A DNA stretch of 64,000 nucleotides, from positions 1,154,698 through 1,218,697 of the forward strand of contig NZ_JARCHV010000001.1 of the NCBI RefSeq assembly GCF_028890485.2, in the 5' to 3' direction. The translations under genes and the position numbers were made by a program. Positions 3,143-57,176 of this stretch are shown piece by piece. The DNA is from Planococcus sp. SK3692 (GTDB taxonomy: Bacteria > Bacillota > Bacilli > Bacillales_A > Planococcaceae). Below the pieces are notes generated by a model. That model saw only the letters and a list, made by a program, of their open reading frames with translations, ran no database searches and was not told the origin of the DNA. Positions within the stretch are counted from its first letter, which is position 1; each line of letters begins with the position of its first letter.

Positions 3143-4133
3143 TGTAGAATTTGATATGGAAGCGGGTGCCTTCATTTGGTGTGCTCGCGACTTCGATGTC
3201 GCCGCTTTGGCTCGTGATGATGCTATAGGCCATGGCGAGGCCGATGCCGACCGAGTCGTCGCCGGCGTTTTCGCCTTTATAGAAGCGCTTGAAAATATAT
3301 GGCAAATCTTTTCTGGAGATGCCACTGCCGTTGTCTTCGATGTGGATGTCTGTGTACAGCGCGTTTTCGCCGTAGCGGATGGCGAGCTTGCCGCCTTCCC
3401 CAGTATGTTCAACGCAATTCTTCAAGATATTGATGAGCGCTTCCGTCGTCCAGTTGAGGTCGCCGGTAAACGCCGCTTCTCTATCTCCTTCGATCTGCAA
3501 TTCCTGCATTTTGATGTCCATCGGGATGAGCAGCGGTTCGACCGCTTTTTCAATCAGCGTGGACACCGGGATGCGGTCTTGTTTGAATGAAATCGTGCCA
3601 GCGTCAATCTTCGACAATTTGAGTAGCGACGCCACGAGCCAGTCCATGCGCTCGAGCTGCGTGTGGAGATTGCGGATGAATTCGCTGCGCTTTGCGTCAT
3701 CCAAGTCACTGTCGCGAAGTAGATCTGCCATGACCATCATCGACGTGAGTGGCGTTTTTAATTGGTGGGAAATATCCGAAATGGCGTTCGTCAGCTTGCC
3801 TTTATCTTCAGTGAGCAGTGCGCCGTGTTCCGACAACATTTTCGTCACTTTGTAGATCTGGGTTTTGAGTAAGCTCAGCTCGCCTTCGCGGTTATCGCGC
3901 ACGTCGAGCTGAAAATCGCCGCTGCTGATTTGTTGCAGGAAACCGGACAAGCGCTCAATCTCCCGGTAGCGCCACCAGGTGAAGATGATCACTGTTGCAC
4001 TCAGCAATAGCGATACGCCGAGCACGAACCACGTGGCCGTATAGGAAACAAAGATGGCGGAGAGAATCGTACCAAGTGCGCTGATTGCGATGAGCGTGGC
4101 GAATAGCCAGCGGATTTCACGGTTGCGCAGCAT
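3129..4133 (-). CDS. Sensor histidine kinase with short extracytoplasmic loop
   Basis: A 334-residue membrane kinase. Two hydrophobic helices (about 10-30 and 35-53) are separated by only a few residues, so there is almost no external sensor domain. A HAMP-like linker follows, then the HisKA box DISHQLKTPL with the phospho-acceptor H123, and an HATPase domain with N-box (NILKNCVEHT) and G-boxes (DNGSGI, GIGLAM). Kinases with this topology often receive their signal through a partner ABC transporter, and here a MacB-like exporter lies close by; the partnership is inferred. It starts two bases after the response regulator stop, in one operon. Confidence 0.93.
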   Translation of the reverse strand: MLRNREIRWLFATLIAISALGTILSAIFVSYTATWFVLGVSLLLSATVIIFTWWRYREIERLSGFLQQISSGDFQLDVRDNREGELSLLKTQIYKVTKMLSEHGALLTEDKGKLTNAISDISHQLKTPLTSMMVMADLLRDSDLDDAKRSEFIRNLHTQLERMDWLVASLLKLSKIDAGTISFKQDRIPVSTLIEKAVEPLLIPMDIKMQELQIEGDREAAFTGDLNWTTEALINILKNCVEHTGEGGKLAIRYGENALYTDIHIEDNGSGISRKDLPYIFKRFYKGENAGDDSVGIGLAMAYSIITSQSGDIEVASTPNEGTRFHIKFYKQVI

Positions 4134-5107: not shown

Positions 5108-5273
5108 CGACTCATCCCTTTCGTGTAGACCGATTTTGTTGCGGTAGTATATTCTACGGTCGAACGGGAATTAAGTTTCATTTCTTCATAAGAGGTCTGA
5201 CGTCCAGTGTATATTCTCTTGCATAAACCTTATTTATATAGTAAGCTGTTCAAAGTAAATACCCCATAACCTA

Positions 5274-5338
5274 TCTGTATAACCTTAAGAATACGGCTTA
5301 AGGGTCTCTACCAGGAACCGAAAAATCCTGATTACAGA
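5274..5338 (+). ncRNA. Purine riboswitch aptamer, adenine type
   Basis: P1 is TCTGTA (5274-5279) with TACAGA (5333-5338); P2 is CCTTAAG with CTTAAGG (5283-5289, 5297-5303); the J2/3 core GTCTCTACC follows, then P3. The base at the specificity position (xpt residue 74) is U5332, in GAUUAC, which in known purine riboswitches selects adenine rather than guanine. It precedes pbuE, the same gene as the B. subtilis adenine riboswitch. Confidence 0.9.
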
Positions 5339-5377
5339 AAGCGATCACTCGTTTTCTGTAATCAGGATTTTTTTATT
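5321..5377 (+). terminator. Riboswitch-controlled terminator of pbuE
   Basis: Bases 5321-5340 pair with 5352-5371, followed by T. The left arm contains the 3' strands of aptamer P3 and P1, so aptamer folding and termination exclude each other. Adenine binding should prevent termination (ON switch), as known for pbuE. Confidence 0.88.
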
Positions 5378-12214: not shown

Positions 12215-12300
12215 GCTGCCTTGCTTTGGGTTGGCCTTTGGCAGCAAGCCAGGAAGAACGCCTGTCTTACTGCGTCAGCTCACCCTTGACGCTAGGCAGC
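12215..12300 (-). repeat. Family B rod element B1
   Basis: An 86-nt element read on the minus strand, beginning GCTGCC and ending GGCAGC. The inner stem is GCAGTAAG with CTTGCTGC (one G-T), the apical stem CAGG with CCTG, and the loop CGTTCTT. The apical pair differs from B2/B3 (CAAG/CTTG) by a compensatory change. It is joined by a linker to the long family A copy c; together they fill most of the gap 12113-12763, where I see no gene. Confidence 0.8.
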
Positions 12301-12514
12301 TGAGAGATTTCACTGCATGCTGACTGTTTAGGTAGATCTGCTTCTATAATCAGTTACCGACTAGCGGGGGAATCGCTTTCCGAGACTAGCATCAAGTACA
12401 TTGGATCTAGCGTTGAAAAGCTTCGAAGTGGACCCGAACTTTTTGACTTCCATATTATATTCAAAATGACTAAGCTACAATGTTTGATGCATTTCTAAAT
12501 TCTCTATCGTGTGT

Positions 12515-12700
12515 ACAGAAGAAATTTCCTTCCTCTCTAAAACTAGAGACGGAGTGGAAGAGGGCTGACGCCTGTGGGACCGCGCGGGCTGGCGAGACAA
12601 ACGTGCCACGCTCTTTGGCACGTTGGCTCAACACCCGCCCCACGGCAAGCAGCCCTCTGCAACGCAGTCGAAAAGCGAAAGCTTTTCCTATCACTTCTTT
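12515..12700 (+). repeat. Family A repeat, long copy c
   Basis: The long form of family A, flanked by a segment shared with copies d and e (AAATTTCCTTCC ... CTAGAGACGGAGTGGAAG) and ending with CAACGCAGTCGAAAAGCG. Perfect arms AGAGGGCTG (12560-12568) and CAGCCCTCT (12650-12658) close it. The variable interior carries hairpin AACGTGCCA/TGGCACGTT. Short open frames across it are by-products of the repeat. Confidence 0.8.
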
Positions 12701-12763
12701 TTCTATAATGCCTCTACTATTCATACGAACTAAAATCTTCACTCTTCATTTAAAATCACAACT

Positions 12764-16017: not shown

Positions 16018-16212
16018 GTGAAATGAAGTGATAGGAAAAGCTTCCGCTTTTCGACTGCGTTTCAGGGGCACGCTTTCCGGAGGGCTCGCATTGAGCCGCT
16101 TCGTCGCTGCGCTCCTGCAGGGTCTCAATTGTCTCGCTGATCCTCCCGGAGTCGGCCCCTTCCACTCCGTCCTTAGTTTTAGAGAGGAAGGAAATTTCTT
16201 CTGTCCAATCGA
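16018..16212 (-). repeat. Family A repeat, long copy d
   Basis: Reads on the minus strand like copy c: GAAATTTCCTTCCTCTC, CTAAGGACGGAGTGGAAG, a GC-rich centre, then CGCAGTCGAAAAGCGGAAGC. The centre contains GGAGGGCTCGCATTGAG and its partner. It is the left part of a composite element that continues through a linker into B2 and B3. The gap 15970-16854 contains only this composite. Confidence 0.8.
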
Positions 16213-16420
16213 TAAAAAAAGGTGATAATTCATCAGGTATTGTAGCTTAAGTCATCTTGGCCATAGTACAGAAGGTGAAAAATCCCAATCCATTCCCAAG
16301 GTTTTCGACTCAAGTTCCAATGTACTTGATACTAGTCTCGGGAAGCGATTCCCCCACTAGCCGACAACTGATTACAGAAGCACAACAATTTAAACAGTCT
16401 ATATGCAATGAAATGTCTCA

Positions 16421-16506
16421 GCTGCCTGGCGTCAAGGGTGAAGCGAAGCCGTAAGACAAGTGTTCTTCTTGGCTTACGGCGGGAGCTCAACCCAGAGCAA
16501 GGCAGC
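16421..16506 (+). repeat. Family B rod element B2
   Basis: An 86-nt element. Nested arms: GCTGCC with GGCAGC; GGGT and AGC with GCT and ACCC; GCCGTAAG with CTTACGGC (perfect); CAAG with CTTG; 7-nt loop TGTTCTT. Single A and G bulges face each other between the two upper stems. Confidence 0.85.
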
Positions 16507-16666
16507 GACTACCATCATGTCACCCAAATCGAATGCCAAAGTAGTTTGACATGCAAACTCTCACTATCTACTTCAAGCTTGTACCAGGAAGCGACTCCCC
16601 CGCTAGCCGGCAACTGATTTCAGATGCAAAACAATTTAAACAGCCTCCATGCAATGAAATGTCTCA

Positions 16667-16752
16667 GCTGCCTAGCGTCAAGGGTGAAGCGAAGTAGTAA
16701 GACAAGTGCTCTTCTTGGCTTACGGCGGGAGCTCAACCCAAAGCAAGGCAGC
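16667..16752 (+). repeat. Family B rod element B3
   Basis: A second copy 246 bases after B2, with part of the linker (CTAGCCG.CAACTGATT) repeated as well, so the unit was duplicated in tandem. The left upper arm has drifted (GTAGTAAG against CTTACGGC), while the outer and apical stems are intact. Confidence 0.82.
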
Positions 16753-22486: not shown

Positions 22487-22755
22487 AAATGATAGCAAAA
22501 CAAGTAATTGAAAAAGCTTCCGCTTTTCGACTGCGTTGCAGGTGGATGCTTGAGGCTCGCAGGATGCGAGTCATGCAGCTGATGCGACAGGACGTCGCGC
22601 TTTCAGCTGCCCGTGGATGGGCGGGAATCGAGCCTCCTCTTCGCGCAAAGTACGCGCTCATGCGGGGTCTCTCAAACCCGCTGATCCCTCAGGCGTCACC
22701 ACCTTCCACTCCGTCTCTAGTTTTAGAAGGAAAGGGAATTTCTTCTGTCCACTAG
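22487..22755 (-). repeat. Family A repeat, long copy e
   Basis: Shares its ends with copies c and d (AAGCTTCCGCTTTTCGACTG at the left, the TCCACTCCGTCTCTAG segment at the right). The interior carries hairpins CTCGCA/TGCGAG and a larger stem around GATGCGAC/GTCGCG bounded by CAGCTGA and TTTCAGCTG. The same interior module occurs inverted in copy h. The gap 22387-23405 holds only this composite with B4 and B5. Confidence 0.8.
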
Positions 22756-22960
22756 TTAAAAAATGTGAAATTGCGTCATGTTTTGTCGCGTAAGTCATTT
22801 TTGGTGTAGAGAGACTAATTAGTTCTGATTCACCAATTAGAATCTCGACTTAAGCGTCAGTTTACCAGACCCTATGTCTCGGGAAGCGATTCCCCACTAG
22901 ACGGCAACTTGTTACAGAAGCAGATCCAGCAAATCACACTTCTCTCAGTGAAATCTCTCA

Positions 22961-23046
22961 GCCGCCCGGCGCCAAGGGTGAGCCGACGCAGTAAGACAGG
23001 CGTTCTTCCTGGCTTAGTGCCAAAGGCCAACCCAAAGCACGGCGGC
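22961..23046 (+). repeat. Family B rod element B4
   Basis: An 86-nt copy with outer arms GCCGCC/GGCGGC where other copies have GCTGCC/GGCAGC (T-A replaced by C-G), and apical CAGG/CCTG. The middle stem has GCC/GGC where B2 has AGC/GCT. One mismatch is present in the upper stem. Confidence 0.82.
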
Positions 23047-23254
23047 GGCTATTCCGATGACACTTTAATTGAATACCGGAACAATTCCACTGTTAAACTC
23101 TCACTATCTACTCAAAGATTGCCTCAAAAAGCGGCTTCTCCATTATTCTCATCTACACACCACCGAAAAAGCAGGAAGCGATTCCCCCTCCACCCGACGA
23201 AAAGTATAAATGCACAAACAGATGCGGCAATTTTCATCGCAATGAAATCATTAA

Positions 23255-23340
23255 GCTGCCTAGCGCCAAGGGTGAAGCGAAGCAGTAAGACAAGTGCTCT
23301 TCTTAGCTTACTGCGAAAGCTCAACCCCAAGCAAGGCCGC
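23255..23340 (+). repeat. Family B rod element B5
   Basis: An 86-nt copy with upper stem GCAGTAAG/CTTACTGC, a compensatory change compared with GCCGTAAG/CTTACGGC of B2. The outer arm has one mismatch (GCTGCC/GGCCGC). It lies 294 bases after B4. Confidence 0.8.
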
Positions 23341-23835: not shown

Positions 23836-24282
23836 TCAGCCATATTTTTTCTGATGTTCTTTTTTGCGGCGCAAATAATCTTCGTCTTCTCGGATTTCGT
23901 CCCAACGCTTTTTGAAGATGGCGGCGGATTCGGCTTTTTCCTCATTAATCTCGCGGTCCTTGATGGAGCCGTCTTCGTTGTATTTACGGCCGCCTTTGTA
24001 ATTGGTATAGCGACGTGCTCGGGTGTAGCCCATTTGGATAAATTTGCGGGCCATATCCATGCCGACGAAATCATCCTTTTCGCGATATTCTTCGAACAGC
24101 TCGGAAATTTTGTCGCATGATTCCTGGGCGATGTCCGGTGTCTTGAATCGCCAATGCGGCAGGATTTCGCCTTTATACGGTTCCACCATCAACACGCCTT
24201 GCTCGCCTTTGCCGACGCGGTACAGTTCGGGGTTTTTCCGCAAGTCCAAATTTTTATAGTCCAGATCGTAATCGAATGCCAT
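23836..24282 (-). CDS. DUF4385-type protein
   Basis: A 148-residue soluble, charged protein. The pattern DYKNLDLRKNPELYRVGKGEQGVL ... ILPHWRFKTPDIA ... FVGMDMARKFIQMGYTRARRYT matches, from memory, the DUF4385 family of small bacterial and phage-associated proteins of unknown function. Its C-terminus is rich in Lys/Glu and likely helical. AAAAGGAGGG precedes the ATG. Confidence 0.82.
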   Translation of the reverse strand: MAFDYDLDYKNLDLRKNPELYRVGKGEQGVLMVEPYKGEILPHWRFKTPDIAQESCDKISELFEEYREKDDFVGMDMARKFIQMGYTRARRYTNYKGGRKYNEDGSIKDREINEEKAESAAIFKKRWDEIREDEDYLRRKKEHQKKYG

Positions 24283-46582: not shown

Positions 46583-46890
46583 TTCACTTTAAAACTGAAG
46601 AAACAATCTTACGCTCTAAAACTAAAGACGGAGTGGAGGGGCTGACGCCTGTGGGACTGCGCGAATGAATAAGTGAAGGGGAGCTGAGCTTATTCATTTG
46701 CGACATATCTGCTTGCAGATATGTCGCAGGCTTTTTTTCTTTGGCACGTTGGCCGGGCACCCGCCTCATCTTCGGGCAGCTGAAAGCGCGACGTCCTGTC
46801 GCATCAGCTGCATGACTCACATCCTGCGAGCCTCAAGCAGCCCCCTGCAACGCAGTCTAATAGCACAAGCTATTCTACTTACTTCTCTTA
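46583..46890 (+). repeat. Family A repeat, long copy h with extra hairpins
   Basis: Ends resemble copies c-e (CTAAAACTAAAGACGGAGTG; CTGCAACGCAGTC). The interior holds AATGAATAAG/CTTATTCATT, a perfect 14-bp hairpin TGCGACATATCTGC/GCAGATATGTCGCA followed by a T-rich stretch, and the CAGCTG-GCGAC module of copy e in inverted orientation. The gap 46436-46972 contains no gene. Confidence 0.8.
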
Positions 46891-57074: not shown

Positions 57075-57176
57075 CTTTTCATCTGCCAGGCGTGTGCCTG
57101 CTGGAATTAGCACCTGACCTAACGGCTGGTTGCTGAAGCGTCATCGGGCCAGTCCCTCGACTTCTCTAGATAAGAA
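57075..57176 (-). ncRNA. SAM-I riboswitch (S box)
   Basis: On the minus strand the conserved S-box segments appear in order: CTTATC, AGAGAAGTCGAGGGACTGGC, CCGATGACGC, CAGCAACC, AGGTGCTAATTCC, and a closing GATGAAAAGG that pairs with the first. Followed by a terminator and yitJ, as in Bacillus yitJ. Confidence 0.95.

Follow-up and report, generated by a model that had tools for sequence, protein, structure and literature searches.

The 86-nt rod-shaped hairpin that recurs in a 64,000-nt stretch of Planococcus sp. SK3692 DNA (hereafter the window) is probably the structural core of a modular interspersed repeat of the BOX/BIME kind, which spread early, is now immobile and has maintained its fold. 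A preliminary description had left open whether the hairpin acts as RNA or as foldback mobile DNA; the evidence favors a dispersed element of the BOX/BIME type, with sites that no longer change and a fold that prefers one strand. That description was right about the hairpin, which is real, but it had missed the larger architecture of units, upstream module and arrays and the limit to Planococcaceae. It had not recognized the family, and the rod indeed had no match in Rfam, either with the window searched at gathering score or with the five loci searched at E<=5. A literature search found no repeat family described from Planococcus or Planococcaceae. The rod repeat is thus a structured family absent from Rfam and from the literature searched. 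Elsewhere in the window, a purine riboswitch (5255-5354, plus strand) and a SAM riboswitch (57076-57176, minus strand) scored above the gathering score.

All five copies first reported in the window are present, each 86 nt long. B1 (12215-12300, minus strand) is a single unit, identified by its fold and by a covariance-model match at G000:C4:1166908-1167013. Sequence, covariance model and fold together identify the other four, all on the plus strand and forming two 2-unit arrays: B2 (16421-16506) is followed by B3 (16667-16752) 246 nt further on, and B4 (22961-23046) is followed by B5 (23255-23340) 294 nt further on. Each of the five folds into a rod with a 7-nt loop, B5 with one apical pair fewer, and the four sets of compensatory base changes named at the outset are correct on inspection. 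Fold energies ranged from -35.7 to -45.1 kcal/mol, with z scores of -2.8 to -5.3 against dinucleotide shuffles. Copy-to-copy similarity exceeds 86 nt by far: the 12-, 16- and 22-kb loci are connected by 250-nt direct repeats and by inverted matches as long as 261 nt. The reason is that the rod belongs to a longer unit and to a composite element.

The rod forms the end of a unit of ~215 or ~246 nt, and units stand head to tail. In alignment A1, a conserved 5' flank with the consensus CAATGAAATCTC precedes the rods of this genome (16405-16420, plus strand, in front of B2). In 246-class units the rod is also preceded by the 5' part of the unit, GGAAGCGATTCCCCC.CTAGCCG..., found at 16341-16404 (plus strand) in unit 1 of the 16-kb array, with further copies at 16587-16650, at ~23174-23238 and, on the minus strand, at ~12317-12386. 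Alignments delimit a leader (16226-16340, plus strand) that runs from the upstream module to the first unit and contains TTGTAGCTTAAGTCAT. The module itself is a hairpin structure resembling Bacillaceae-1, located at 16021-16225 (plus strand) in the 16-kb array and at 22489-22770 (plus strand) in the 22-kb array, where it holds a match to Rfam RF01690 at 22556-22618 on the minus strand. In the 12-kb array it occupies 12466-12712 (minus strand), as judged from repeat matches and a genome-wide module search.

Genome-wide, 34 of the 45 arrays have a related module ahead of their first unit. Its orientation never varies, whereas its inner part does, and it usually ends ~150 nt before the start of the covariance-model match, a near-fixed distance. 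The typical order at a site is upstream hairpin module, leader, and one to five head-to-tail units, each ending in a rod. Twelve of the 16 genome matches to Bacillaceae-1 (RF01690) adjoin an array. A second match in the window, at 46765-46830, has no rod unit nearby. Three relatives (G151, G136 and G135) carry the upstream module at the 12-kb site without any rod unit, which shows that module and units need not be found together. Genus g3 has mixed arrays as well as rods in inverted pairs. The inverted pairs consist of two sequence variants, some with one arm tandemly extended, and are like BIME heterodimers (L287, L288, L289, L049).

A BLAST search with B2 found 40 places in the genome. The covariance model R1 (106 positions, 27 pairs), built from 30 own-genome copies, gave 75 matches, 67 of them above 85 bits. 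With one opposite-strand match left out, the remaining 74 copies fell into 45 arrays of one to four units (25 single, 14 double, 3 triple and 3 quadruple), at unit spacings of mostly 214-219 or 232-249 nt. All 46 Planococcus genomes searched contained matches, with 2 to at least 85 copies per genome. The broader model R2 found matches in 101 of 261 genomes in a sample of the order, from six genera, Planococcus and five more, all of them Planococcaceae. Outside Planococcaceae a class-wide sample gave no match, its 20 positive genomes among 399 all belonging to that family. Phages and viral contigs gave no match either, and a plasmid collection yielded only a 7-kb linear record from Planococcus sp. 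MB-3u-03 (NZ_CP025126.1; L368). Besides rod units, this record has only ordinary metabolic genes, and it resembles a contig of the chromosome that was misassigned. We therefore rejected a phage or plasmid element.

Two-sided changes affected 11 of the 27 pairs among the 30 own-genome copies (51 cells, against 13.4 in shuffles) and 21 of the 27 among cross-genus copies (163 against 42.7); the larger alignment A3 contained 400 such cells, against 130. Sliding one strand by one to three columns abolished the signal every time. As a phylogeny-aware null, we simulated 100 alignments on a maximum-likelihood tree of 97 non-redundant copies (A4) and compared APC-corrected G statistics. In A4, 12 of the 27 pairs reached E<0.05 as a set and 6 survived correction for all 5,356 column pairs; no other pair survived it, and the top 11 of the 5,356 column pairs were all proposed base pairs, in alignments that, being fitted to the covariance model, lean towards the proposed structure. 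In A3, which is less diverse than the de-duplicated A4, one pair was significant at the all-pairs level. The preliminary description had proposed such a significance test, and had made its reading depend on covariation beyond phylogeny and on the absence of any Rfam or protein-family match. The covariation does exceed phylogeny, and neither Rfam nor protein families gave a match.

The fold belongs to the strand as drawn, since the inner helices show an excess of G-T over A-C cells (22:7, 15:3, 60:19 and 39:13 in four overlapping alignments), with the reservation that these cells are not independent and that single-stranded DNA could give the same excess. Strong conservation across genera extends to unpaired positions, among them CGA, the A.G mismatch in AAGAC/GGCTT, and GCG.gAG. 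Among 44 reciprocal-best orthologous unit pairs, pairing was kept in 34 of 39 two-sided and 53 of 113 one-sided changes, and divergence was 0.082 in paired versus 0.157 in unpaired columns; at fourfold sites of the flanking genes (automatic frames) it was 0.25. Together with the covariation, the lower divergence of paired columns in orthologous copies bears out the selection on structure invoked in the preliminary description. For only 28 of 67 units was the best match the one at the orthologous site; some of this conservation is therefore probably due to exchange among copies.

Sites are stable among near relatives. Of the 45 arrays of this genome (G000), 41 have the same flanks and orientation in the sister species G136; at 22 of these shared sites the two genomes differ in the number of units detected. 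The SDF/SDR site has one, two or three units among eight species. In G118, 16 of 18 array regions, drawn from its best-scoring matches, have both flanks of a G000 array. In one more G118 region (L338:1218-3771), a single 2-unit array joins the SDF gene to the orthologue of the gene at window position 23836, beyond the LacI array. The genes from SDR to LacI (~6.5 kb) are absent there, the outcome expected of a deletion by recombination between two direct arrays. In G044, G127 and G139, only 1 of 19 array regions has both G000 flanks, and a few have one. From sites that are common to near relatives and mostly different in distant clades, we infer dispersal early in each clade, after which sites became fixed.

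Of the marks of a MITE, neither a target-site duplication nor terminal inverted repeats were recognized, and no clean empty site came to light at the two loci examined, so it is only from the distribution of the arrays that we infer transposition. At the 12-kb site, the three relatives with a solitary upstream module have other sequence in the unit's place, and the LacI site of G135 and G131 holds a rod-free array remnant; no clean junction was found at either. After the LacI-site remnant (L254 ~1232-1950 in G135, L257 ~3150-3704 in G131) come short, AT-rich, TTCCACAAATAAACT-like tandem repeats that resemble an expanded unit spacer. In G136, whose dnaA lies at 3.188 Mb, 0.8 Mb of the 3.5-Mb chromosome (G136:C1:1316399-2133148) is without an array, and the point opposite the origin (~1.44 Mb) falls inside this stretch; from G136 alone, array depletion at the terminus is possible. 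Counting revealed no clear bias of array orientation relative to the replication strand in G136.

On the BOX/BIME-like reading, a trans-acting enzyme would have spread the element in bursts at an early stage of each clade, and the element would now be stationary. Arrays would grow and shrink through unequal recombination or slippage between units, and the fold may be kept because it acts when transcribed or single-stranded, or because copies correct one another. Decay would be expected of a parasite that no longer moves, yet nearly all copies are intact, most scoring above 85 bits, and their paired columns are under constraint even at fixed sites. This hints at a function for the host. A bolder reading, which we consider rather doubtful, is that the arrays are a lineage-specific structural system and not dormant parasites at all, with rods selected at fixed sites as binding platforms in RNA or single-stranded DNA, unit number tuning dosage, and possibly a rule of chromosome position.

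Much of the same evidence bears on a functional RNA family, in which arrays would be transcribed and rods would bind protein or RNA, the tandem units tuning dosage in a sponge-like manner or affecting the stability of neighboring transcripts. The strand-biased fold, the cross-genus conservation of unpaired positions, and the excess of pair-keeping two-sided changes with low divergence in orthologous units all agree with this, but gene conversion could mimic such in-place selection, given how few units best match their orthologous site. A consensus scan of one array, that at 16 kb, found nothing resembling a promoter, nor, on the plus strand, a terminator. All arrays are intergenic, and the flanking genes are oriented ++ at 14, -- at 13, convergently at 15 and divergently at 3 (simple ORF calling, approximate), which means that neither the partner gene nor its orientation is constant; moreover, copy number varies widely between genomes, and the inverted pairs of g3 would make half the units antisense. 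We regard an RNA family as possible, at rather less than even chances. A protein-coding repeat, or a chance hairpin repeat, has next to no probability. A 152-aa reading frame does span the 22-kb array, but it has no Pfam match, most unit spacings are not divisible by three, copies carry single-base indels, and the covariation speaks against coding and chance alike; on the spacings and the missing Pfam match we rejected a coding repeat.

It is improbable that the RAYT of this genome (TnpA_REP, a Y1 transposase) mobilizes the rods as a REP/REPIN family. In favor of this, the genome contains exactly one Y1 transposase gene, which is RAYT-like, the inverted heterodimer-like pairs of g3 resemble BIMEs, and a relative of the RAYT occurs in 18 of 22 element-bearing versus 35 of 99 other genomes of Planococcaceae (fragments included, kinship uncorrected). 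However, no rod lay within the RAYT flanks retrieved from four Planococcus genomes, and the element-bearing G007, G112, G103 and G116 have no match to this RAYT. Neither a GTAG nor a CGTC tag is conserved: of 156 copies, 32 are followed by CTAC, the reverse complement of GTAG, and just one has a 5' tag. Here the RAYT has flanking repeats of its own, 22-28 nt long and unlike the rod. With so weak a case, we did not adopt the RAYT as mobilizer. The repeats beside it, inverted and direct copies of TGTCCCTGTGCATGACACAATT (L260:1123-1281 and 2075-2096; G000:C5 near 794 kb), are a separate small REP-like family.

These results add a large, well-defined structured repeat family to Planococcaceae, from which none had been found described. 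Static sites with changing units, usually confounded, allow the forces acting on copy number to be studied without transposition, and compensatory change at fixed orthologous sites makes the question of parasite or function testable for bacterial repeats. The Bacillaceae-1 motif gains a context as one component of a composite repeat.

In design, the family is closest to BOX elements and BIMEs, a likeness that does not establish membership in either. With structured noncoding RNAs it shares covariation beyond phylogeny. The Bacillaceae-1 RNA (RF01690) lies physically within some upstream modules, on the opposite strand, but spans only their optional inner part, and the rod has no covariance match to RF01690. 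Like Bcr1 and other Bacillus stem-loop families (PMC2267715), the rods are Gram-positive intergenic repeats with conserved secondary structure; they differ from Bcr1, which is given as 147-167 bp with a few dozen copies, and the sections consulted name no family from Planococcaceae. REP, BIME and REPIN sequences, which are GTAG- and CGTC-tagged palindromes (PMC3733652), are likewise extragenic, palindromic and present in many copies, and the inverted dimers and clusters of g3 recall them. Unlike these 20-40-nt palindromes, the rod is two to four times longer and has no conserved tag, Planococcus arrays are mostly head to tail, and the RAYT is not adjacent.

BOX of Streptococcus pneumoniae is modular, with tandem boxB, and underwent a burst followed by dormancy (PMC3049150). 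The rod repeat differs in its ~215- or ~246-nt unit with an 86-nt rod, as opposed to short boxB modules, and in its limitation to Planococcaceae; the likeness to BOX is one of design, and in alignments we recognized no boxC-like 3' end module or terminal inverted repeats. Like BOX (PMC3049150), it is an intergenic, structured composite of an end module and variable tandem internal modules, with a constant 5' end module at most arrays and one to five tandem units at fixed sites, and it probably combines a past burst of dispersal with near immobility today.
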